Positions 17,151-30,416 are shown, counted from the first letter of the stretch. The stretch is 64,000 nt of DNA from Flavobacteriales bacterium (GCA_025451235.1 JANWKT010000008.1:434001-498000); one strand, 5' to 3'. The notes: generated by a model from the letters alone, not told the origin. Numbers and translations: made by a program.

Positions 17151-17879
17151 ATGTCAGCAACCAGCCAAAAAATAGGATCAGCATTGAAGACCTTTGCAAA
17201 AGTGGGTTGGGCGGTGACCGCTCAAATATTATTGTTTACGGCAGTGGGCATCGTACTCAATCTTATCCTCACCCCTTTTTTATGGTCTGAATTCAAAGCA
17301 TTGGTACCACAAGGTTCTAATCCTGGTGCCCGGGCAGGTGGACCCATCGTGATCCTTTTAGTGATCTGGTATTTTCTTCCCTCCACCTTGTTATTGCTTT
17401 TTTTCCTTTTGGTGATGCCTTTGATCTTCTTTTTCGTGGGCAAGAAACAAGGGATCAAGGCGGCAGTAAGTAAGATCATTCATGAAAAAGGGGACAATAT
17501 GGTTGGTTTCATCGTTTCAAAATTTACCGAAAGAATGGCCAATAACCCAGAGTGGAAAACAAGTGTCCAGAAAAACGGGATCGTAAAAACGGTGCGGAAT
17601 GTATTTCCGCGTTTTATAAAAACCTTGCAGGGCCTGCCGTGGATATTAAGACGGCCTATTAAGGTGGTTTTCGAAGGGATCGATTTTGCAGGTGCCGTTG
17701 AACAAGCTTATAAAACCCGGCCAGATACTCCCATTAATTCACCAGAAACCAACCAGCATATTACGGAGATCATTTCAAATAAACTAAAGGAGAAATTTCA
17801 ACCACCTAAGGGAAGGTTATTGTTGGTATTGGTTGGGATCAACATTCTATTGTTTGTGGCCGCGAAGATCTTTATCTGA
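17151..17879 (+). CDS. Integral membrane protein of unknown function
   Basis: 242 residues. There are membrane segments at about 20-45 (VTAQILLFTAVGIVLNLIL), a longer hydrophobic hairpin at about 65-105 (IVILLVIWYFLPSTLLLLFF and following) and one at the very C-terminus (LLLVLVGINILLFVAAKIF). The middle 110-215 is soluble and contains FPRFIKTLQGLPWILRRP. No family recognised. It lies between the exporter and the sensor kinase; 66 nt and 43 nt gaps make shared transcription possible but unproven. Confidence 0.65.
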   Translation: MSATSQKIGSALKTFAKVGWAVTAQILLFTAVGIVLNLILTPFLWSEFKALVPQGSNPGARAGGPIVILLVIWYFLPSTLLLLFFLLVMPLIFFFVGKKQGIKAAVSKIIHEKGDNMVGFIVSKFTERMANNPEWKTSVQKNGIVKTVRNVFPRFIKTLQGLPWILRRPIKVVFEGIDFAGAVEQAYKTRPDTPINSPETNQHITEIISNKLKEKFQPPKGRLLLVLVGINILLFVAAKIFI

Positions 17880-17922: not shown

Positions 17923-20922
17923 ATGCTCAAAAACCTATTATCTTTTGTTTTCATTCTGATCCTTCAGGCGAGCATTTTTGGGCAGAGCTATCATTTTGTG
18001 AACTATTCGGTGGAAGAAGGTTTGCCTCAATCCCAGATCTATTCTATATACCAGGATGAACACGGTTATGTGTGGTTGGGGACTTTTGGGGGTGGTTTGA
18101 GTCGTTACGATGGTATTGACTTTGTTAATTATCATGAAGAACAAGGTCTAAGCTGTAGCTTTGTAAGAGCCATCGTGCAAGTGGAAGGCGGTAATTTTCT
18201 GGTGGGTACAGATGAAGGTTTGTACATCATGATCAAAGGTAGATTCATGCGTTACGATTTTATCGGAGTAAATGGGAATGTTGCTGTGAGGACCATCATA
18301 ATAGATCAACAAAAAAATATATGGGTGGGAACCATTGGTGATGGATTGTTCCGTTATAAAGACGGTAATATCGAATTTTATACGGTCGATCAGGGTTTGC
18401 TAAGCAATAACATCAACTGTTTATATAATGATATCAATGGAAATATATGGGTGGGACATGACAATGGTTTTTCTATTATCAAGGATGGGAAAATAAAATC
18501 TTATAACAAAGCTGGAGAAAAACCATTTACCTCACTGAGGGCCATTACGGGTGATAAACATGGCCAGGTTTGGTTGGCATCCTATATATATGGAGTGGTC
18601 ACCTATGATGGAAAATCCTTCACCAAATTGAATGGACTTGCCAGCAATACCATTTACTCGGCCTATTGCGACGCAAAAGGAAATTTATGGTTTGGAACAG
18701 CCAAAGGACTCAATAAACTCCAGGGAGATTCGGTAAAAACAATTACGGTAGAAGAAGGGCTTTGTTCCAATACCATTGTTTCCATTTTAGAAGATACACA
18801 CCACAGTCTTTGGTTCGGTAGTTCCGGAGGAGGGATCAGTCGTTTTGATGATGAACGTTTCATCCATTTTCCCAAAAATGAAAAAATGGGGAAACTGGTA
18901 TATGATATTCAGCAAGACAAAGAAGGGCATATGTGGTTGGCTGCATCGAACGGTGGTGTAACCAAATTTGATGGCAAAGAGTTCAGGAATTTCAACGAAA
19001 AGGATGGTTTTACCTCTGTTATGATCAAATCGATCCTTTGTAAAGAAGATAGCAGTTGTTGGTTTGGCAGCAATGGGGCAGGAGCCTTTTTGTATGATGG
19101 TGAAACATTTGAACACTATACTTATAAGGATGGATTATGTGGTAGTTTTATTTCGGGGATCGATTCAGATATATATGGCAATATATGGTTTTCAAGTCTT
19201 GACAAAGGAGTCGGTTTTTATAAAGAGAGAAATAAAACTTTCTACCGCTATACAAAAGCAGATGGACTTGCTTCGGATCGGGTGAATGCCCTTTGTTGTG
19301 CAGAGAATGGTGATATATGGGTAGGAACATCTAACGGGGTCAACCGGATCCGGTTTTCTGAAGAGGACAGTACTTCCATCACCATTTCAACCATCAATCA
19401 ATCCAATGGCTTAACCGGGAACAATATTAATTCACTTGTATGTAGAAACAATTTAGTTTATATAGGGACCTCCGGTGGAGGGATCAATATATTGGATCAA
19501 AACAACCGGGTGATCTCATGGAAAAAGAAACAAGGTCTGGGTTCCAATATTATTTATTCGCTGGTTTTTGATGAGAACGGAAACCTATGGTCAGGATCAG
19601 AAAAAGGGATTGATAAGATCGTCATCAAAAACGAAAGAATTGAAAGTGTAGTGCACTTCGGAAAAGCTGACGGGTTTGTTGGTGTGGAGAACACGATGAA
19701 TTCCTCCTGTATGGATAGTGCCGGAAACTTATGGTTTGGGACCATCAACGGTGCTAATATGTACAACCCTGATTTTGATCAAAGTGATACATCCACATCC
19801 AAGATACAACTTACATCGGTTCATCTTTTATTCGACAGAATTGAAGATACGGAATACGGAGAGAATATTTCTTCCTTCGAGGAATTGTCCGGAAACTTAA
19901 TACTCCCTTATTATAAAAATCATTTGAGTTTTAATTTTATTGCGATCAATTTCAAGAATCCGGATGCCATGAAGTACAAATGGAAACTTGAAGGGGAAGA
20001 CAATGATTGGTCACCCGAGTTAAGCAGGAGGGAAGTTACCTATTCCAGTCTTCCTCCGGGGAAATACACTTTTTTTGTAAAAGCTTGTAATGAAAATGGT
20101 ATATGGACCTCCCAGCCAGCCTCCTTTTCTTTTACGATCACTCCTCCTTATTGGACATCCACCTGGTTTATTGTATTGATGGGTACGCTAATCGTGTCGG
20201 CTCTTTTCATTATTGTTTATACCACCATCACCAGGGTGAAAACAAAGAACAAGACCACCAGAGAACGGCTGGAAATGAGTAAGAGCATCCTTGAATTACA
20301 ACAGGCTACTTCGAGATTGCAAATGAACCCACATTTTATTTTTAACTCTTTAAATTCGATCCAGGGCTATATTGCTACTAACAATACTACAGATGCGAAA
20401 TGGTATCTTTCGAAGTTTGCAAAACTCATGCGACTCATTCTTGACAACGCAAGAGAAGAGTTTATTCCATTAAGAGATGAGATCTATATCCTCGAGAACT
20501 ATCTTATCCTCGAAAGAATGAGGGTGAATGAAAAGTTCGATTTTACCCTGGATATTGATGAATCCATTGATACCGAGGCGGTGGAGATACCACCAATGAT
20601 CCTGCAGCCCTTTGTGGAAAATGCTGTGCTTCATGGTTTCCGACATAAAGAAGGCAAAGGTCTCCTGGCCATTGTTTTTACCTTGAAAGATGATATATTG
20701 ACATGTGAAATAACGGATAATGGTATTGGAAGGCAAGCGGCCTCTGAACGAAAAAACAAATCTGCAGCCGGACATAAATCTTCAGCCATCACTATTACGG
20801 AGGAACGCTTGAAAAAACTATCGAAAGAATCGCAAAAGGAATCGGGCATCAGAATTATTGATCTGAAAGATGCGGAAGGTAATGGCAGTGGAACCAAGGT
20901 GATCATTCAAATACCCATTTAA
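17923..20922 (+). CDS. Sensor histidine kinase with periplasmic two-component propeller (LytS-type kinase)
   Basis: 999 residues. Signal peptide (about 1-20), then roughly 620 residues of Reg_prop blades (repeated IWVG...GLFRY, LWFGT..GL.K), a Y_Y_Y Ig-like domain (YKWKLEGEDNDWSPE ... LPPGKYTFFVKA) and one membrane helix (WFIVLMGTLIVSALFIIVY). The cytosolic kinase is of the His_kinase (LytS/YehU) class: phosphoacceptor His804 in MNPHFIFNSLNSIQ, N-box PFVENAVLHG, G-box ITDNGIGRQ. In polysaccharide-sensing Bacteroidota kinases the propeller binds the ligand. No SusCD genes or glycan-degradation locus lies nearby. The stop is 9 nt before the response regulator ATG; the two form one operon. Confidence 0.92.
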   Translation: MLKNLLSFVFILILQASIFGQSYHFVNYSVEEGLPQSQIYSIYQDEHGYVWLGTFGGGLSRYDGIDFVNYHEEQGLSCSFVRAIVQVEGGNFLVGTDEGLYIMIKGRFMRYDFIGVNGNVAVRTIIIDQQKNIWVGTIGDGLFRYKDGNIEFYTVDQGLLSNNINCLYNDINGNIWVGHDNGFSIIKDGKIKSYNKAGEKPFTSLRAITGDKHGQVWLASYIYGVVTYDGKSFTKLNGLASNTIYSAYCDAKGNLWFGTAKGLNKLQGDSVKTITVEEGLCSNTIVSILEDTHHSLWFGSSGGGISRFDDERFIHFPKNEKMGKLVYDIQQDKEGHMWLAASNGGVTKFDGKEFRNFNEKDGFTSVMIKSILCKEDSSCWFGSNGAGAFLYDGETFEHYTYKDGLCGSFISGIDSDIYGNIWFSSLDKGVGFYKERNKTFYRYTKADGLASDRVNALCCAENGDIWVGTSNGVNRIRFSEEDSTSITISTINQSNGLTGNNINSLVCRNNLVYIGTSGGGINILDQNNRVISWKKKQGLGSNIIYSLVFDENGNLWSGSEKGIDKIVIKNERIESVVHFGKADGFVGVENTMNSSCMDSAGNLWFGTINGANMYNPDFDQSDTSTSKIQLTSVHLLFDRIEDTEYGENISSFEELSGNLILPYYKNHLSFNFIAINFKNPDAMKYKWKLEGEDNDWSPELSRREVTYSSLPPGKYTFFVKACNENGIWTSQPASFSFTITPPYWTSTWFIVLMGTLIVSALFIIVYTTITRVKTKNKTTRERLEMSKSILELQQATSRLQMNPHFIFNSLNSIQGYIATNNTTDAKWYLSKFAKLMRLILDNAREEFIPLRDEIYILENYLILERMRVNEKFDFTLDIDESIDTEAVEIPPMILQPFVENAVLHGFRHKEGKGLLAIVFTLKDDILTCEITDNGIGRQAASERKNKSAAGHKSSAITITEERLKKLSKESQKESGIRIIDLKDAEGNGSGTKVIIQIPI

Positions 20923-20931
20923 ACACATACT

Positions 20932-21678
20932 ATGATAAGAGTTGTACTTATTGACGATATTAAAAACTCAAGGGTTACCCTGGCCGACGACCTGAAAACC
21001 TATTGTCCCGAGGTGCATATACTTGGGGAAGCCGATAGCGTTAAATCAGGCATAGAGCTGATTAAAACAGCCAAACCTGATATTGTATTTCTTGACATTG
21101 AGCTAACGGATGGCACCGGTTTTGATATCCTAGATGGTTTTGATAAAGTTGAATTCAAGATCATTTTTATAACCGGACTGGATTCCTATGGGATCAAAGC
21201 TATTAAATTCAGTGCTTTGGATTACTTATTAAAACCGGTAGATCCGGAAGAACTGGTAAATGCTATTGATAAGTATAAGGAAAACGAAAGGCAGCATGAC
21301 CTGAAGGCCAATGTAGATTATCTACTGGAAAATATCAACAGCATCAAACCAAAATTTAAACGTATCGCATTAAGTAGTGCATCTAAAGTGAATATGGTGA
21401 ATATTGATGATATTATTAGATGTGAAGCACAAAGCAATTATACTTTATTTTATTTATCAGGAGGAGAGCAGATCCTGGTTACCAAAAGCTTGAAGGAGTA
21501 CGAAAACCTTTTGGAGGAGTATTCGTTTATGCGGGTTCATCATGCACACCTCATCAATCTCAATTACTTAAAAGAGTATATCAAAACAGACGGAGGTTAT
21601 GCCATCATGACCGATCGTTCTAACGTGCCTGTTTCCGTCCGCAAAAGAGATCATCTTTTAAAGGAATTAGGCCTTTAG
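20932..21678 (+). CDS. LytTR-family response regulator
   Basis: 248 residues. Receiver domain 1-120 with acidic pocket Asp8/Asp9, phosphoacceptor Asp55 (IVFLDIELTDGTGF), Thr in FITGLDSYG and Lys in LLKPVDPEEL. A linker leads to a LytTR DNA-binding domain at about 145-245 (IALSSASKVNMVNIDDIIRC, FMRVHHAHLINLNYLKEY, VPVSVRKRDHLL). LytTR proteins bind direct repeats spaced about two helical turns, and three such repeats lie 75-120 nt downstream of this gene. Partner of the kinase immediately upstream. Confidence 0.93.
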   Translation: MIRVVLIDDIKNSRVTLADDLKTYCPEVHILGEADSVKSGIELIKTAKPDIVFLDIELTDGTGFDILDGFDKVEFKIIFITGLDSYGIKAIKFSALDYLLKPVDPEELVNAIDKYKENERQHDLKANVDYLLENINSIKPKFKRIALSSASKVNMVNIDDIIRCEAQSNYTLFYLSGGEQILVTKSLKEYENLLEEYSFMRVHHAHLINLNYLKEYIKTDGGYAIMTDRSNVPVSVRKRDHLLKELGL

Positions 21679-21752
21679 TCTAATGTGTTGATTTTAAATA
21701 ACTTAATTTTCTATTATCCTGAGTCTAACCCAATCGGGTGAGGACTGGTTTT

Positions 21753-21801
21753 CACTTACAGGCTAGTTTCTACACTTACACGAAAAATCCCCACACTTAA
21801 T
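21753..21801 (-). promoter_or_regulatory. Three phased LytTR-like direct repeats upstream of the VIT/vWA gene
   Basis: CACTTA occurs at 21753, 21773 and 21794, periods of 20 and 21 nt. Read on the minus strand the units are TAAGTGAAA, TAAGTGTAG and TAAGTGTGG. The last two match the published LytTR half-site [TA][AC][CA]GTTN[AG][TG] at eight of nine positions. They lie about 80-130 nt before the ATG at 21884 and directly after a LytTR regulator gene, so they are the natural operator of that regulator. Confidence 0.6.
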
Positions 21802-21883
21802 TGAATGCCCCCTATTGTCGCCTCAGGCCGGCATAATTTTACCCTAGATTTTAAATAAAAACATAATTAATAATTGTACAACC

Positions 21884-24289
21884 ATGAAAACAACCTCAAA
21901 AACCAGTAGCCTTTTATTCATGATCACCTTCATTAGTATATGGGCTGTTTCCTGTGAATCTAAAAAATCAGCGGCTAACCAAAACAACAACAACCATCCT
22001 ACCAACGATAAGAAGGTAGAGTTGCAAAGCACCCAGGTCACCAATTCGAATAACAATAACAATTCGGTGCCGAACAATGTATATGCATCAGTGGATGACC
22101 TGGCTCCGGCAGAAAAAACCTTGTCACCCTATTTCATTGTATTGAGTGATGATCCATCTCATGAACAACTGCCTTTAAAAAGTACCTCCGCCAATGTAAA
22201 CATTGCTGGGGTAATTGCGGATGTGGAAATTACCCAAGTGTATAAAAATACTGGTACCGGTATTCTGGAGGCAATTTATACTTTTCCTGCTTCCAGTCGT
22301 GCCGCGGTATATTCCATGGAAATGTACATAGGAAAAAGAAAAATTGTGGCTACCATTAAAGAAAAGCAACAGGCCCGGATAGATTATGAGCAAGCCCAGG
22401 AAAATGGTAACCGCGCTGCATTGCTTGAAGAAAGCAGACCCAATGTATTTCAAATGAATGTGGCGAATATTAGCCCGGGCGATGAAATAAAAGTTTGCCT
22501 TAAATACACAGAGCTGCTTGTACCTGAAGAAGGAACTTATCAATTTGTTTATCCAACAGTAGTAGGTCCTCGTTATTCCAGCAAAACTGAGCATGGTGGA
22601 ACCCATTCGGATGAATATGTAGAAACTCCTTATTTACATGAAGGAGAACTTCCAACTTATGATTTCGATATTCAGGCACATATTGCAGCTGGTATGGATA
22701 TTAAAGATGTAACCTGTACTACCCATAAAGTAAAAACCTCATTTCCGGAAACTAAAACGGCGAATGTTAGGCTTGACTCAGCAGAAAGAAGATCGGGGAA
22801 CAAAGATTTTGTTTTGGAATATAAATTAGCCGGAAATAAAATTGAAACCGGCCTTTTATTATATGAACATGGGGATGAAAAATTCTTCCTGATGATGGTA
22901 CAACCTCCGAAGGCCATCAAACCACAGGATATTCCTCCAAGGGAATATGTATTCATTATGGATGTTTCGGGCTCCATGAGTGGATGGCCGTTGGAGGTAT
23001 CCAAAAAACTATTACGTAACCTGATCACCAATCTAAGACCTACCGATAAATTCAATGTAACCATTTTTGCATCTGCCCCTGAACTCATGTCTCCCATTTC
23101 ATTGGATGCCAATACAGACAATATCAACAAAGCCATGACTTTTATTGATCAGCAAACCGCCAATGGTGGAACTGAATTACTTCCTGGTTTGAAAAAATCA
23201 TTTGCATTGCCACGTGAATCAGCATCACTTTCCCGTTCATTTGTAGTATTGACCGATGGATACGTAGATGTTGAAAAAGAGTGTTTTTCGTTGATCAGAG
23301 GCAATCTTAACAATGCCAACTTGTTCGCTGTAGGGATCGGTGGTTCGGTGAATCATTACCTCATAGAGGGAATGGCCCATGCGGGAATGGGAGAACCCTT
23401 GATCGTAATGGACGAGAAAAATTCAGATCAGCAATGTGAAAGATTCCGTCAATATATTTCCTCACCGGTTTTAACTCAGGTAAAAAGAGATTTTGGCACA
23501 TTCCAGGCTTATGATATTGAACCACTCACCAGTGCTGATGTATTAGCCGAAAGACCTGTCATCATTTTTGGTAAATATAAAGGAGAAGCCAAAGGAACCA
23601 TTAAGATCTCCGGATATAATGGGATCAATAAATATACCACCTCGTTTGATGTATCCTCGGTGAAAGCAGATTCAAAAAATATGGCGTTGCGCTATCTATG
23701 GGCCCGTGAAAGAATAAAATTTTTAGAAGAGGACAATGCGTATAGTTTTAGTGAATACCTGGTTGATTCAGCCAAAGTAAAAGAGGTGACCAAGTTGGGA
23801 TTGAAATATAACTTACTAACAGCCCATACCTCCTTTGTTGCTATCGATAAAACGGAAGTAATTGATCAAAATGGTAAAAAAACATTGGTACAGCAGGTAT
23901 TGCCTTTACCTGAGAATGTATCCAACTATGCCATTGGTGCCGATTTCGGAATTGATGAGGAAACTGCCGAGTACAATATGGAAGAATTCTCGATATATAG
24001 TGAAATTATTCTTTCTCCAGCACCAGTTGAACCTCAGAATAAAGTAGTGATTGCGAACCTTGAGAATAAATTAGGCAAGCTGGTGAATGCGGCCCTGGCA
24101 TCTGTTGACTTGATGGGTTGTGATTCAATAACAGTTACTGTTGATGGGTATGGAGTAGTGAAGAAAGTATCTGTTTGTGGTGATGTGATCTCGTCCAGTT
24201 CAAAATACGATATTGAACAACTCTTTTTCACCTATAATTTTTCTTTCCCTTCACTTAACCAGGAATGGTGTTTCATCATTAAATTCTAA
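21884..24289 (+). CDS. VIT and vWA domain lipoprotein
   Basis: 801 residues. Lipoprotein signal with lipobox AVSC (Cys24), then an Asn-rich linker (30-65). The VIT domain occupies about 95-225 (VEITQVYKNTGTGILEAIYT, AVYSMEMYIGKRKIVATI, FQMNVANISPGDEIKV). The vWA domain spans about 354-530 with an intact MIDAS D-x-S-x-S (Asp360, Ser362, Ser364 in FIMDVSGSMSG), so it should bind metal and a ligand. The C-terminal 270 residues are unassigned. This is the bacterial counterpart of the inter-alpha-trypsin inhibitor heavy chain architecture, on the cell surface or in the periplasm. The next gene begins 5 nt later. Phased LytTR-like repeats lie upstream. Confidence 0.88.
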   Translation: MKTTSKTSSLLFMITFISIWAVSCESKKSAANQNNNNHPTNDKKVELQSTQVTNSNNNNNSVPNNVYASVDDLAPAEKTLSPYFIVLSDDPSHEQLPLKSTSANVNIAGVIADVEITQVYKNTGTGILEAIYTFPASSRAAVYSMEMYIGKRKIVATIKEKQQARIDYEQAQENGNRAALLEESRPNVFQMNVANISPGDEIKVCLKYTELLVPEEGTYQFVYPTVVGPRYSSKTEHGGTHSDEYVETPYLHEGELPTYDFDIQAHIAAGMDIKDVTCTTHKVKTSFPETKTANVRLDSAERRSGNKDFVLEYKLAGNKIETGLLLYEHGDEKFFLMMVQPPKAIKPQDIPPREYVFIMDVSGSMSGWPLEVSKKLLRNLITNLRPTDKFNVTIFASAPELMSPISLDANTDNINKAMTFIDQQTANGGTELLPGLKKSFALPRESASLSRSFVVLTDGYVDVEKECFSLIRGNLNNANLFAVGIGGSVNHYLIEGMAHAGMGEPLIVMDEKNSDQQCERFRQYISSPVLTQVKRDFGTFQAYDIEPLTSADVLAERPVIIFGKYKGEAKGTIKISGYNGINKYTTSFDVSSVKADSKNMALRYLWARERIKFLEEDNAYSFSEYLVDSAKVKEVTKLGLKYNLLTAHTSFVAIDKTEVIDQNGKKTLVQQVLPLPENVSNYAIGADFGIDEETAEYNMEEFSIYSEIILSPAPVEPQNKVVIANLENKLGKLVNAALASVDLMGCDSITVTVDGYGVVKKVSVCGDVISSSSKYDIEQLFFTYNFSFPSLNQEWCFIIKF

Positions 24290-24294
24290 GCATC

Positions 24295-25464
24295 ATGAAA
24301 GCCAAGCAAATTTATTTGTTGTTATCGTTGTTAGTTTTGACTACTGTTCCTTTCATTGTTTCAGCGAGCCAGTATAGATGGAAGAGCAAGGAGCAATCGA
24401 AGTTGGTAGACAACCAGAAGCAGAATAGGATGTTTACGATACAGGATACAGGCAGGCAAAGCATCACTTTCATTCTGGGGGATGACGAAAAAGGTGCTAA
24501 ACCTTATTACTCTCTTGCCTTTGATTATTACCGGACGGATAAATTTGCCCGTACAGAAAACATCAACAATACATGCAGATCATTGTCGGAAGTGAGGGAT
24601 TATTTGAGAGATAACCCTCCCGGCAATGGCCGGCCCTGGGGTTTGATCCACCTGGTATCACATGGTAACGAATGGTATGGATTAAGTGTACCTGTGGAAC
24701 CGGGGTCTAAACGTTCAAGTACCGATAGATTGGATGAATTTGTGAATGAAGGGAAATTTGAATCCTTATCAGATCAACTTATTGACGACTCCACCGAAAT
24801 ATTTCTTCATGGTTGTGGGCTAGGAAACGATCAGGAGTTACTCCAGGTCGTTTCTAAGGCCTTTGGCGGAAAAGGAAAACGCCCCCTGGTAACTGCATCG
24901 AAATTGAAGGAATATTATTTTTCTATGGGCCATCCCAATCAGCAAAAAAGGATCCAACTGTATTATGCTCAAACCTGGAAAATATACTACCAATTTAAGA
25001 GCAGACCCGACAATGAAACGTTGAAGCAGGAATTTGCTCAACGGTATCCGGAGGAAAAAGTGGATTGGGAAGAGGCGTTGAAATACACCAATCCAGCCGT
25101 TCCCAGCGATGTATTCCATTATGAGGTGAACATTCCAGTTTATTATACGGTGAAATATGCTTCAAAGGATAGTTTACCCGACCTGTCTTCGGATGAAAAG
25201 AAATTGAAGTTCATTAAATCTCAAAAGAAATTTGCAGGCTTGATCGGGAAATCAAAGATCCCATTTGAAAAATTTACATGGACCACCAAGCGAATTTATG
25301 TTACCGATGATAAAAACAAAAAACAACCGGCGATCAGTATTACCGGGTGGTGTACCGTTTTATGTGTGGTAAAGCCATTGATCATGGAAAATCAGAACTC
25401 AGGTTGGACCTCTAGGCCCTATTACCCGGCAAAAACGGATACAACCTATTTTGGAATAAGTTAA
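24295..25464 (+). CDS. Secreted protein with clan CD peptidase-like (CHAT/DUF4347-like) His and Cys
   Basis: 389 residues with a signal peptide (about 1-25). The segment 55-205 shows a hydrophobic strand ending in His-Gly (GLIHLVSHGNEW, His123) and, 51 residues later, a strand ending in Cys (STEIFLHGCGLGND, Cys174), then a helix and LVTAS. This strand-His-Gly / strand-Cys order is the active-site layout of caspase-like clan CD folds, including CHAT and DUF4347. Residues 215-389 are of unknown fold. It lies 5 nt after the VIT/vWA gene, so the two proteins probably act together outside the cytosol. Peptidase activity is inference; a binding-only or other role remains possible. Confidence 0.6.
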   Translation: MKAKQIYLLLSLLVLTTVPFIVSASQYRWKSKEQSKLVDNQKQNRMFTIQDTGRQSITFILGDDEKGAKPYYSLAFDYYRTDKFARTENINNTCRSLSEVRDYLRDNPPGNGRPWGLIHLVSHGNEWYGLSVPVEPGSKRSSTDRLDEFVNEGKFESLSDQLIDDSTEIFLHGCGLGNDQELLQVVSKAFGGKGKRPLVTASKLKEYYFSMGHPNQQKRIQLYYAQTWKIYYQFKSRPDNETLKQEFAQRYPEEKVDWEEALKYTNPAVPSDVFHYEVNIPVYYTVKYASKDSLPDLSSDEKKLKFIKSQKKFAGLIGKSKIPFEKFTWTTKRIYVTDDKNKKQPAISITGWCTVLCVVKPLIMENQNSGWTSRPYYPAKTDTTYFGIS

Positions 25465-25879: not shown

Positions 25880-27436
25880 CTATTTATTTAGGATTACCCT
25901 ATTTGTTGAAATTCCTTGCTCATTTCTTATTTGCACACAATACATTCCATTGGCCAGTTGGTCCAATAAAACGAATTCACCAGGATGAATATGGGTTGAA
26001 AGTACCCTTCTACCATTTATATCAAAAACCGAAATAGCTGATTCTATTTCTACCGGAATATTCAGGACCCCTGAAGTTGGATTGGGATAGACTTGCCAAA
26101 AATCCTCCTCCAGGATTTCATCCACACCAACCGTGCTGCATAAGGTGGTAATCATACCACCATGCGATGAAAAGGGTGTGGGATTTGAAATAATAGTGGT
26201 AGTATTATTGAGTGTAAATGGTGCATTGCTAACAGTGGGCACAACGTTTGAGTCGGAAATAGAAACCGTAACCATGTTGCATGGACTGAATCCCAAGCTA
26301 TCTGTTCGAACTGCATAATAGTCCCAGCCACCGGCCCCAACCTCGTTGGAGAGTCCACCTAACATAAAGCCATGATCCACCATTTCAACCACAGCCCGTG
26401 AATTATCCAATTCATTTCCTCCGTATAAATGCGACCAAATGATTCCGCCGCCTACATCCATTTTGAGCAGAAATGCATGGTGCCCGCCGGAACCAGTGAT
26501 TTGACCCTGTCCTGTAACCACATATTGATCATCTTGTGTTTGAATAATTTCATATGCCCAAACGAGATATGGGTCGCCACATCTTTTTGACCAAACCGGA
26601 TTTCCCAAGGCATCCGTTTTCATCATAAAAACTGAACCATAGCTTGGGCCAAAGGAATGTGTTTCTCCAACTACGATGTATCCGTCATCAGGAGTTTGTA
26701 TTACTGAACTTCCAGCATCACTATTGACCCCACCATATACTTTTGACCATTGTATATTGGCATTGGAGTCTGTCTTAATCAGAAATATATCGTCTTGACC
26801 GACCCCAAAACTATTGGTATATCCGGTAATGATATAACCATTGTCACTGGTTTCCTTGATGTCTAAAGGTGCATCATATCCTGGAGCAACAATAGTTTTT
26901 GTCCATATAGTATCTCCCCATGCATTTATTTTCACCATATAAGTGTCGAAACTTGTACCTCCTCCAAATGAACTGCTGGTTCCCATCAACAAAAAACCAT
27001 TACCTCCAACAGGAATAATATCTAAAAATTCATCATTGATCAACCCTCCGTATGTTTTTGACCACATCACCTGTTCACCGGTATCGAGCTTAATAATAAA
27101 TGCATCAGCATCCCCGGCCCCGAAACTATATGTTTTTCCAATGACCATCATCCCACCGTCATTCGCCTGATGTGCATTTAAACCATATTCGCCTTGGCCA
27201 CCTCCCAGAACTTTGGTCCACATGGTGTCTCCATCCGCATCAATTTTCACCACGTATATATTTCCAGGACCAAAGCTATTGGTATTACCAACGAACATAA
27301 AGTTTTTGTCGAAAGTGCCTCTCAGGGTCCAACAAAACTCCAGACCTGTACCCCCATAATCTTTTTGAAAGGTCTGACTGTACGTATTAAAAGCCAGCGA
27401 TAGAAACATTCCTGCTAAACATATTTTTATTTTCAT
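25880..27436 (-). CDS. T9SS cargo protein with 'YGG..D' propeller-like repeats
   Basis: 518 residues from MKIKICLAGMFLSLAFNTYS; seven further codons are open upstream. Signal peptide, then about seven repeats of 50-60 residues with W.KVYGG...D and DDGYIVVGET.SFG patterns and FLIK.D..GN..W.K, probably a beta-propeller. The C-terminal 75 residues are a type A sorting domain (VYPNPTSGVLNIPVEIESAI ... GMYCVQIRNEQG). The protein should cross the outer membrane by T9SS. It has the same architecture as the gene at 28839, and the two likely arose by duplication. Ligand unknown. Confidence 0.85.
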   Translation of the reverse strand: MKIKICLAGMFLSLAFNTYSQTFQKDYGGTGLEFCWTLRGTFDKNFMFVGNTNSFGPGNIYVVKIDADGDTMWTKVLGGGQGEYGLNAHQANDGGMMVIGKTYSFGAGDADAFIIKLDTGEQVMWSKTYGGLINDEFLDIIPVGGNGFLLMGTSSSFGGGTSFDTYMVKINAWGDTIWTKTIVAPGYDAPLDIKETSDNGYIITGYTNSFGVGQDDIFLIKTDSNANIQWSKVYGGVNSDAGSSVIQTPDDGYIVVGETHSFGPSYGSVFMMKTDALGNPVWSKRCGDPYLVWAYEIIQTQDDQYVVTGQGQITGSGGHHAFLLKMDVGGGIIWSHLYGGNELDNSRAVVEMVDHGFMLGGLSNEVGAGGWDYYAVRTDSLGFSPCNMVTVSISDSNVVPTVSNAPFTLNNTTTIISNPTPFSSHGGMITTLCSTVGVDEILEEDFWQVYPNPTSGVLNIPVEIESAISVFDINGRRVLSTHIHPGEFVLLDQLANGMYCVQIRNEQGISTNRVILNK

Positions 27437-27483
27437 CGCTGGCTTTTTAATAAACATATAAACTTCAGTTTGAATATACGCGA

Positions 27484-28707
27484 TTATTTGTTGACGATCA
27501 CCCTGCCGGCCGAAACTCCTTTTGCATTTTTCACCATGATCACATACATTCCATTGGATAATTGACCTAAGGATAAAATCTGACCAGGTGTGAGAATGGT
27601 TGATAGCACCATTTTTCCATTCATATCAAGGACGGAGATATCCGAAACTAATTCAATAGGAAGATTGAGAAAATCGGAAGTTGGGTTAGGATAAATACCT
27701 TGCAATGCTGTTACAACTGTTTCATCAATAGCTAAAGGTTGATTCCGCTTTACCACCTTACCTCCTTCGCCTAGAGCAAATAACGTATTTCCTCCTCTGT
27801 GAAATCTTTTCAAGGCGAAATTCGATGTATAATCGAGGGTTGATGTGGATCCATTTACTTTTAAAATGGTAGAAGTAGCTCCTGTTTGATTTGTAATATA
27901 TCCTTCCGTGCCGTTGGTCATGAATACATCTGTATAAGCGAATGCGGTGGTTGTATCCGTATGTATAGTATCCCAACTGGTTCCACCATTCGTTGTTCTA
28001 ACAAAATAATTATCATATACAGGGAACCCTTTTGTAAATACTGCGAAACCGAGATTGCCATTTAAAAAATGTGTTCCACTGAATGTAGAATAATCCGAAC
28101 CAAATATGCGTTCCTGGAAAGTTCCTATGCCATCTCGTCGTATCACAGATCCCCTATAGGCGAATGTACCGTCCCAACCCGTGAAAATAATGGTATCGGC
28201 CCCCACATGTTCTTTATCATTGGCTGAAGAGTACCCACCCATTGGAAGTGGTGTCCAGTTTTGGCCACCGTTGGTAGTATGATATACGATGCTAAATATA
28301 CCGGTAACAAAACCATTGGAAGCATCCGTGAATCTCATCATATTATATACATCACCAGCTGGCAGGGTGTCGGAGATCCATGAATTACCTCCATTGAAGG
28401 TAGTTTTAAGCATGGTGATCGCTCCGCTGTCAACCAACACAAAACCGGTATCCGCTGATATAAATTCTATATCAATAGCACCTACACCAGGATTGATGAT
28501 CACACTATCCCAACTTGATCCTCCGTTAGTGGTTTTGAAGATCATGGGATAACCATCGGCCATTACATACCCCAGGTTGTCATTTACAAAGGATCCCTTG
28601 GCCAATGCATATGGATAAGGGATACTTATATCTGTCCATTGTGCCTGAACTGAATTTACGCATAATAAAATAGGTAGAAGGAGGGAAAGGAAACGTGATT
28701 TTTTCAT
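27484..28707 (-). CDS. T9SS cargo protein with Ycf48/BNR-like repeats
   Basis: 407 residues. Signal peptide (1-22), then a propeller built of BNR-like units: IFKTTNGGSSWDSV, LKTTFNGGNSW, YHTTNGGQNWTPL, VRTTNGGTSWDTI, with the intervening LGYV/TGFV/NGFV strands typical of Ycf48 and photosynthesis-assembly-like propellers. The C-terminal sorting domain (IYPNPTSDFLNLPIELVSDI ... GMYVIMVKNAKG) is close in sequence to that of the neighbouring 25880 gene. Exported to the surface by T9SS. Role unknown. Confidence 0.85.
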   Translation of the reverse strand: MKKSRFLSLLLPILLCVNSVQAQWTDISIPYPYALAKGSFVNDNLGYVMADGYPMIFKTTNGGSSWDSVIINPGVGAIDIEFISADTGFVLVDSGAITMLKTTFNGGNSWISDTLPAGDVYNMMRFTDASNGFVTGIFSIVYHTTNGGQNWTPLPMGGYSSANDKEHVGADTIIFTGWDGTFAYRGSVIRRDGIGTFQERIFGSDYSTFSGTHFLNGNLGFAVFTKGFPVYDNYFVRTTNGGTSWDTIHTDTTTAFAYTDVFMTNGTEGYITNQTGATSTILKVNGSTSTLDYTSNFALKRFHRGGNTLFALGEGGKVVKRNQPLAIDETVVTALQGIYPNPTSDFLNLPIELVSDISVLDMNGKMVLSTILTPGQILSLGQLSNGMYVIMVKNAKGVSAGRVIVNK

Positions 28708-28838
28708 AACTTGAGTTTTAATTATAGTACAATGATACGTTGCAACTGTCTATTTGGTCATGTACTATTTTTCCCGAAGTATGCAAAAACAGGATTAAAT
28801 GTTATTCTGTTGTTAATGCTATGATTTACGAAGCTCAA

Positions 28839-30416
28839 CTACTGCGCAATGAGCTTTCCGGCAGCCATACGCATTCCTTTTTGATTAATGGAATAATAGT
28901 AGATCCCGGAAGGAAGATGGTTCCTTTTGATCTCTATGCTGGTCGTAAATATGTTGGTTATCCTTTGAACTTCCCGCCCATGAATATCGATTATTCTTAA
29001 TTCAGCATTTTCGAATTCTTCACCTGATTGTATTTCTATACTTAATGAATGTATAAAAGGATTTGGATATAGATTTAATTTGATCTCAGGTTGTGGATCA
29101 GCTTCCAATCCCATGGTAGTACAAAGGGTGGATACAGATCCTCCATATTGAATACCTGGATTAATATTGATGATATCACCTCCTCCTGCCATCAGGGTTG
29201 CCGTATTCGATGAAACGAACAGCTGACTATTTTCTGTTGTGGCAAAATCAATCCCATTACAACCGCTGTTACCCATACTATCTGTTTTTACCATATATAT
29301 ATCCCCATTGCCTGCCCCGAAATTTGCAGAACCTCGAATGGTAACATATCCTCCATCGTTTGCCTGAATAACATCCCAAGCCCAATCATTATTAGCTCCA
29401 CCAAATGATTTCGACCAATTCACCATTCCTGCACTATCTGTTTTTATTAAATATATATCCCCTCCATTAGAGCTGGTGAGTCCACTTAAAATAAATCCTC
29501 CATCATTTGTTTGTTTTACAGCATAAACTCTTTCAGCACCAGCTGTTCCATAAGCCTTGCTCCAAAGTACCGTACCATTGATATCTATCTTTACCAATAA
29601 GGCATCATGACCACCTGCTCCAAAACTACCTGTATAACCACCCATCATATATCCTCCATCAGAAGTTTCAATAATTGAATTGGCACGATCATATCCGGCT
29701 CCTCCTATAGATTTTGTCCATTGTATATGACCCAGGTTATTTGTTTTTACCAGATAGATATCCGTTGCTGTACCAAAACTAGAAGTATATCCAGCTGCGA
29801 TATACCCTCCATCAGATGTTTGTTGCAGTGATGACCCATATTCCAATCCGATAGCACCACCATAAGTATGGGTCCATGTTGTATCTCCATTGCTATTGGT
29901 TTTGATCAGATAAAGATCTCCTCCACCTGCACCATAACTTAAAGTTACACCGCAAATAATATATCCTCCGTCTGTTGTTTGCCGAACATTATATGCATCA
30001 TTGATATTTGAACCACCGATCGCTTTACTCCAGGAGAGATTGCCTGTAGCGTCGAACTTATTTATAAAGATCAATTCGTTATTAGCTCCATAACTGAATG
30101 TACCGCCTGCTACAATATATCCACCATCCGTAGTTTGTTGAACTGCGTTAGCCCAGTCGCTGAGTGAATCACCCAATACCCTGGTCCACAAGGTATCGCC
30201 ATTGACATCAGTTTTGATCAGGTATAGGTTTACACTATCTGCCGTAAGTGTATGAATTTGTCCGGCGATGATATATCCGCCATCCGTTGTTTGTCGGATC
30301 GCTTTTCCGTCATCTGATTTGGTGCTACCGTAAGTTTTTTGGAAGGTAAGTTGTTGGGCGTAATTTGTAATCGTGCATGAGATTAAGAAGGTAAGAATGA
30401 TTAGTCTTACTTTCAT
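28839..30416 (-). CDS. T9SS cargo protein with 'DGGYI..G' propeller-like repeats
   Basis: 525 residues. Signal peptide (about 1-20), then at least seven units with IRQTTDGGYIIAGQ, LYLIKTD.NGDT.W and SYGAG, near-identical in rhythm to the 25880 protein. The sorting tail (LYPNPFIHSLSIEIQSGEEF ... GIYYYSINQKG) differs from the other two cargo proteins of the cluster, so the tails were not homogenised. The gene is divergent from the GH18 gene, with an inverted repeat at 30497-30590 in between. Confidence 0.85.
   Translation of the reverse strand: MKVRLIILTFLISCTITNYAQQLTFQKTYGSTKSDDGKAIRQTTDGGYIIAGQIHTLTADSVNLYLIKTDVNGDTLWTRVLGDSLSDWANAVQQTTDGGYIVAGGTFSYGANNELIFINKFDATGNLSWSKAIGGSNINDAYNVRQTTDGGYIICGVTLSYGAGGGDLYLIKTNSNGDTTWTHTYGGAIGLEYGSSLQQTSDGGYIAAGYTSSFGTATDIYLVKTNNLGHIQWTKSIGGAGYDRANSIIETSDGGYMMGGYTGSFGAGGHDALLVKIDINGTVLWSKAYGTAGAERVYAVKQTNDGGFILSGLTSSNGGDIYLIKTDSAGMVNWSKSFGGANNDWAWDVIQANDGGYVTIRGSANFGAGNGDIYMVKTDSMGNSGCNGIDFATTENSQLFVSSNTATLMAGGGDIININPGIQYGGSVSTLCTTMGLEADPQPEIKLNLYPNPFIHSLSIEIQSGEEFENAELRIIDIHGREVQRITNIFTTSIEIKRNHLPSGIYYYSINQKGMRMAAGKLIAQ

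Follow-up and report, generated by a model that had tools for sequence, protein, structure and literature searches.

A 64,000-nt stretch of a Flavobacteriales bacterium assembly (GCA_025451235.1, JANWKT010000008.1:434001-498000; hereafter the window) carries four open reading frames (ORFs), all on the plus strand, which encode a propeller sensor histidine kinase, a LytTR response regulator, an exported VIT/vWA protein and an exported protein with a conserved His/Cys pair, here called HC (Table 1). The gene order and the gaps of 9 nt (kinase to regulator), 205 nt (regulator to VIT/vWA) and 5 nt (VIT/vWA to HC) are exactly as given in a first-pass annotation, which had proposed the four genes as a candidate module. 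Pfam matches to the kinase were strong (PF07494, 1e-48; PF07495, 9e-18; PF06580, 4e-20), and a His_kinase (PF06580) sensor next to a Response_reg-LytTR regulator is the composition of a LytTR two-component system (TCS). Profile searches gave no confident Pfam or NCBIfam match for HC, and PADLOC returned no defence match on the module apart from one weak hit on the receiver part of the regulator. The VIT/vWA protein is, as annotated, a putative lipoprotein in the window genome, but this is not a family trait, since most relatives start with an ordinary signal-peptide-like N-terminus. Taken with the data below, the module seems to be a response system of the Bacteroidota cell envelope that has not been described before.

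Table 1. Features of the module and of its predicted control region (positions counted from the first nucleotide of the window).
Feature	Position	Strand	Details
Propeller sensor histidine kinase	17923..20922	+	999 aa; 8 Reg_prop stretches (periplasmic), Y_Y_Y, transmembrane segment, His_kinase/HATPase
LytTR response regulator	20932..21678	+	248 aa; Response_reg 5e-16, LytTR 3e-16
Operator half-site 1 (TCACTTACAG)	21752..21761	+	Direct reading; same triplet in L037, L038
Operator half-site 2 (ACACTTACAC)	21772..21781	+	Direct reading; same triplet in L037, L038
Operator half-site 3 (ACACTTAATT)	21793..21802	+	Direct reading; ends 31 nt before -7 element
Predicted Bacteroidota sigma-A -7 element (TAATTTTA)	21834..21841	+	Offset 31 from half-site 3; consensus TAnnTTTG
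Exported VIT/vWA protein, putative lipoprotein in window genome	21884..24289	+	801 aa; VIT 2e-33, VWA_3 8e-17
Metal ion-dependent adhesion site (MIDAS) motif D-x-S-x-S (D360, S362, S364), vWA domain	22961..22975	+	Invariant in module VIT/vWA alignment
HC, exported candidate cysteine peptidase (clan CD-like)	24295..25464	+	389 aa; conserved His/Cys, predicted fold
HC predicted catalytic His123	24661..24663	+	Conservation
HC predicted catalytic Cys174	24814..24816	+	Conservation

HC was not found in the 59 nearest related genomes searched, and conservation was therefore sought in more distant genomes (in what follows, L-numbers denote loci and G-numbers genome assemblies in this survey of relatives). 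Clear homologues, at around 30% identity, were present in 3 of 395 genomes of the class, flanked by the same module genes except at L008, where VIT/vWA is missing. A contig scan with the single HC sequence found no homologues; a scan with a four-member HC alignment yielded 43 loci from Flavobacteriaceae, Saprospiraceae/Lewinellaceae, Bacteroidetes/Bacteroidales metagenome-assembled genomes and one genome labelled Chlorobiota. Within the Saprospiraceae, 22 of the 80 genera searched contain HC. VIT/vWA and HC are nearly always neighbours. In 30 loci the gap from VIT/vWA to HC does not exceed 130 nt, and in three others (L052, L064, L090) the two are fused into a single ORF. Moreover, a kinase and/or LytTR regulator lies nearby in 27/43 assessable VIT-HC loci, whereas no such kinase or regulator accompanies the nine control VIT/vWA loci from class genomes without HC (0/9; Fisher p 6e-4). 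The first-pass annotation had named as counting against a module that VIT/vWA and HC genes would usually occur without the kinase-regulator pair; this is not what the loci show. Its expectation that the four families would recur together is borne out, but not in the order of the window: the commonest arrangement is VIT/vWA-HC-kinase-regulator, and the kinase-regulator-VIT/vWA-HC order was seen in L038 and probably also in L037, which lies at a contig start. The four families are a recurrent module across families and not a chance neighbourhood. The L037 contig (JAUVIG010000062.1) is the one labelled Chlorobiota, but few modules are closer to that of the window, possibly reflecting a binning or labelling error or transfer. 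Of the nine control loci, two adjoin exosortase N and four have the HC-less VIT/vWA gene beside genes resembling extracytoplasmic function (ECF) sigma factors (L178-L181; profile-confirmed in L178 and L179). At L178 the VIT protein has a TonB C-terminal domain at its end.

The gap of 205 nt contains CACTTA at 21753, 21773 and 21794, with spacings of 20 and 21 nt, and the arrangement ACTTA-N15/16-ACTTA-N15/16-ACTTA occurs once in the whole 4.28-Mb window genome, at the module. Taken alone the triplet is unconvincing (a generic triple-repeat scan gave p of about 0.05, and its top-scoring triple was a different one), and such scans of individual upstream regions in relatives were mostly at chance level until a shared ACGAATWCTA pair was recognised. 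A direct repeat, ACGAATWCTA-N11-ACGAATWCTA, precedes VIT/vWA in about 35 of 48 loci, and operator sites with two or fewer mismatches, typically one to five of them, are present in 39/54 module-bearing genomes. This operator is nearly absent from class genomes that lack HC. At one mismatch or fewer it occurs in just three of the 395 class genomes, two of which bear HC: the window genome, another HC-bearing genome, and G332, where it lies beside a propeller-kinase/LytTR pair. The site in the window genome (C14:216579-216630) falls inside an EnvC-like ORF and is probably a chance occurrence. The Bacteroidota -7 consensus is TAnnTTTG (PMC9723704), and among 82 strong sites this motif starts exactly 31 nt past the operator in 37, while any other offset has a mean of 0.09; the shorter TAnnTT is found at offset 31 in 52 of the 82.

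The loci with the closest regulators, L037 and L038, carry three TACACTTAT-like repeats with a spacing of about 21 nt in the same place as the window triplet, and the distance from the third repeat to the -7 element is 31 nt in the window, 31 nt in L037 and 30 nt in L038. The three regulators form one clade (support 99/95), and regulator clade tracks operator type. Because of the shared triplet, the matching -7 distance and the supported clade, the window repeats are best read as a clade-specific version of the relatives' operator. The first-pass annotation had likened them to LytTR sites, and an operator-like element to which the regulator presumably binds is consistent with that. It had also held that absence of the repeats from relatives with the same gene order would speak against a linked module; even Kordia, with a kinase-regulator pair located elsewhere in the genome, retains the operator. 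Fixed-register ACGAATWCTA repeats would provide a defined, testable operator for the LytTR regulator of the very abundant and little-understood propeller kinases of Bacteroidota. In G332, which has no HC, a triple operator (L189 5215-6419) lies upstream of a gene for a Band_7-domain lipoprotein, next to the kinase/LytTR pair, which argues that the operator follows the regulator family. At L188 (1-3143), an ACACTTA repeat pair is found between a LytTR regulator gene and the gene of a legume-lectin-domain protein.

In relatives the operator also precedes genes for SH3_3 proteins, CreD (in two Flavobacteriaceae), alpha-2-macroglobulin (A2M, in Kordia) and a PSP1-GldH-PBP1A cluster. The Kordia A2M is a lipoprotein with a bait region (L131 1519-7095; also L143, L147 and L148), and judging by the promoter register its translation probably begins at the second ATG (MRNTT...). 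Since these operator-driven genes have envelope and peptidoglycan functions, the most economical role is an envelope response. The regulon in relatives (SH3, CreD, A2M and the PBP1A cluster) points to such a response; the adhesion turned on by an external cue that had been proposed at first gains no support from these data, though adhesion is not contradicted by them either.

The AlphaFold2 model of HC (predicted local distance difference test score, 89) was compared with solved structures. The top ranks in VIA-align were MARTX cysteine protease domains, CHAT, gingipain, caspases and GPI transamidase, with Z scores up to 8.2. All eight best rows belong to clan CD (Z 8.2-6.5), unrelated folds begin at Z 6.5, and identity to the listed solved members is at most 17%. 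Weak profile matches to DUF4347 (PF14252) were obtained for 17 of 37 HC members (best E 9.6e-6), the window HC being unmatched. The His and then the Cys each follow a hydrophobic strand, as in clan CD. A clan CD (caspase/CHAT-like) fold is thus predicted, in keeping with the initial description of the protein as clan CD-like.

A closer inspection of the His/Cys pair revealed that both residues are intact in all 49 HC copies adjoining VIT/vWA. In contrast, of 13 VIT-less copies with enough flanking sequence for a verdict, 10 lack both (Fisher p 3e-9, its significance being overstated because related sequences are counted separately), and loss is visible in at least three lineages. In 10 assemblies every HC copy is degenerate, and a genome-wide search of them found no VIT/vWA of the module family; G762 and G846, two of the 10, seem to be a single genome. 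For two of the three VIT-less loci with intact HC (G732 and G834), a VIT/vWA gene is present at another place in the genome, in one case under the same operator. It is chiefly this correlation between dyad state and VIT/vWA presence that suggests a VIT/vWA protein as the target, or the gate, of HC activity. Kordia has a second HC (L130 5526-6575; L144 5056-6105) in which the His and Cys are replaced by K and S. In these genomes the kinase-regulator pair lies away from VIT/vWA and shares an operon, preceded by the same operator, with this predicted dead HC and an SH3 protein; the second HC is a probable pseudo-enzyme of a signalling branch.

The computations show the gene linkage and its recurrence, the fusions, the operator with its promoter register and specificity, the correlation of the dyad with VIT/vWA and the fold prediction; for the signal, DNA binding by the regulator, catalysis by HC and its substrate, we infer the following course. 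The propeller kinase would sense a periplasmic or envelope condition and phosphorylate the LytTR regulator, which would bind the direct repeats, phased at 20-21 nt, just upstream of the -7 element and activate transcription of VIT/vWA and, along with it, HC. Both products would be exported, and HC would act as a clan CD cysteine peptidase, or possibly transpeptidase, with the metal-binding (MIDAS) VIT/vWA protein as its dedicated partner and likely substrate. Processing or attachment of VIT/vWA would then form part of a maintenance or defence response of the cell envelope. We consider it fairly probable that the module is a self-contained two-component regulon of this kind, in which VIT/vWA and a dedicated HC peptidase or transpeptidase serve the envelope.

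Several points weigh against this reading. The structural match is modest, with Z of about 8, and for HC nothing at E<=0.001 came from Foldseek alone. Two Gelidibacter genomes have an intact HC without a detectable VIT/vWA. The model of the fused protein shows no interface; its linker is disordered, and for this reason no contact between VIT/vWA and HC was read from it. Sixteen VIT-HC loci, seven of them from Kordia, have no adjacent TCS. Finally, the envelope-related members of the regulon come from relatives only, and the strict operator of the window genome is found only before the module operon.

Among known systems, the dedicated sortase system of marine proteobacteria (TIGR03784-03788) combines a VIT/vWA protein with a kinase, a regulator and a dedicated sortase of its own. 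The module resembles it in three respects: its VIT/vWA protein belongs to the same broad family, with TIGR03788 as the best model, it has a kinase and a regulator to itself, and its cysteine enzyme is likewise a dedicated one. However, the window VIT/vWA scores 400.6 bits against TIGR03788, below the curated cut-off of 551.65, and lacks a C-terminal LPXTG signal, and the enzyme is clan CD-like and not a sortase. At E<=0.1 neither the kinase nor HC had a listed match to the models TIGR03785, TIGR03787 and TIGR03784, which were also not among the 25 best matches shown for the regulator. With the score below cut-off and the kinase and regulator not called, the module is not a member of that system; by analogy, it may work like it, with a clan CD enzyme replacing the sortase. 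The exosortase N system (TIGR04476/TIGR04477) is likewise found in Bacteroidota and pairs a VIT/vWA protein with a single cysteine enzyme dedicated to it, as at L185 (6659-9957) and L186 (6730-10046), where the VIT/vWA gene is directly followed by exosortase N (TIGR04476 above its curated cut-off). The VIT proteins of L185 and L186 bear a C-terminal XrtN signal and have no TCS. HC is predicted to be a soluble clan CD protein, and neither TIGR04477 nor TIGR04476 matched the window VIT/vWA or HC. The VIT/vWA-HC pairing is best read, by analogy, as a parallel to the sortase and exosortase N pairings.

HC resembles DUF4347, MARTX cysteine protease (C80), CHAT and caspase enzymes in its conserved His...Cys and predicted fold, although the window HC has no confident family assignment. 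With the L052 fusion model, Foldseek matched the whole VIT-vWA architecture to that of inter-alpha-trypsin inhibitor heavy chains (6fpy; E 2e-34), but the module is bacterial, is partnered with a cysteine enzyme and has no bikunin. The vWA-MoxR ternary conflict systems with CASPASE/VMAP (eLife 2020, PMC7159879) also join a vWA protein to a caspase-like enzyme; the module differs in that it has no MoxR ATPase, its proteins are exported and it is controlled by a LytTR TCS. A domain search found no MoxR in the four genes or in 17151-17879, and the paper makes no mention of VIT or LytTR (PMC7159879). The first-pass annotation knew of no system with exactly this set, and none was found described in the literature searched, most subscription journals lying outside its coverage.

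A stronger form of the favoured explanation is possible but tentative: besides sortase and exosortase N, HC may represent a third independent type of dedicated cysteine transpeptidase or maturase acting on VIT/vWA proteins, which belongs to clan CD, covalently processes or attaches a protein resembling inter-alpha-trypsin inhibitor heavy chains to the envelope and has its own envelope-stress TCS and regulon.

Conversely, HC could be the effector and VIT/vWA its regulator or receptor, such that metal or ligand binding controls a peptidase cutting other envelope or foreign proteins. Ligand gating is common among clan CD folds, the fusions and shared operon are consistent with such control, A2M in the Kordia regulon is a protease trap, and the correlation between the dyad and VIT/vWA fits equally well. 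We nevertheless think this rather unlikely and favour VIT/vWA as the substrate, since its family relatives elsewhere pair with enzymes that process the C-terminus (exosortase N). It is improbable that HC is mainly a component of the sensor pathway, that is a ligand-binding pseudo-peptidase or an adaptor of the propeller kinase, with peptidase activity secondary. Degenerate copies do retain the operator and adjoin kinase and regulator (L008, L071-L073 and the second HC of Kordia in L130/L144), but the His/Cys pair is kept without exception beside VIT/vWA, which argues that HC activity matters there. Finally, a chance neighbourhood of common Bacteroidota genes, suggested by the abundance of propeller kinase/LytTR pairs and the absence of HC from the 59 related genomes, is so improbable as to be ruled out by recurrence across families, the fusions, operator specificity and the promoter register.

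Directly upstream of the kinase, 17151-17879 encodes a membrane protein that neither Pfam nor NCBIfam matched and that shows no sign of module membership. Just downstream of HC, three secreted proteins are encoded on the minus strand (25880-30416); their C-termini have PNPT-type sequences similar to the sorting domains of type IX secretion.

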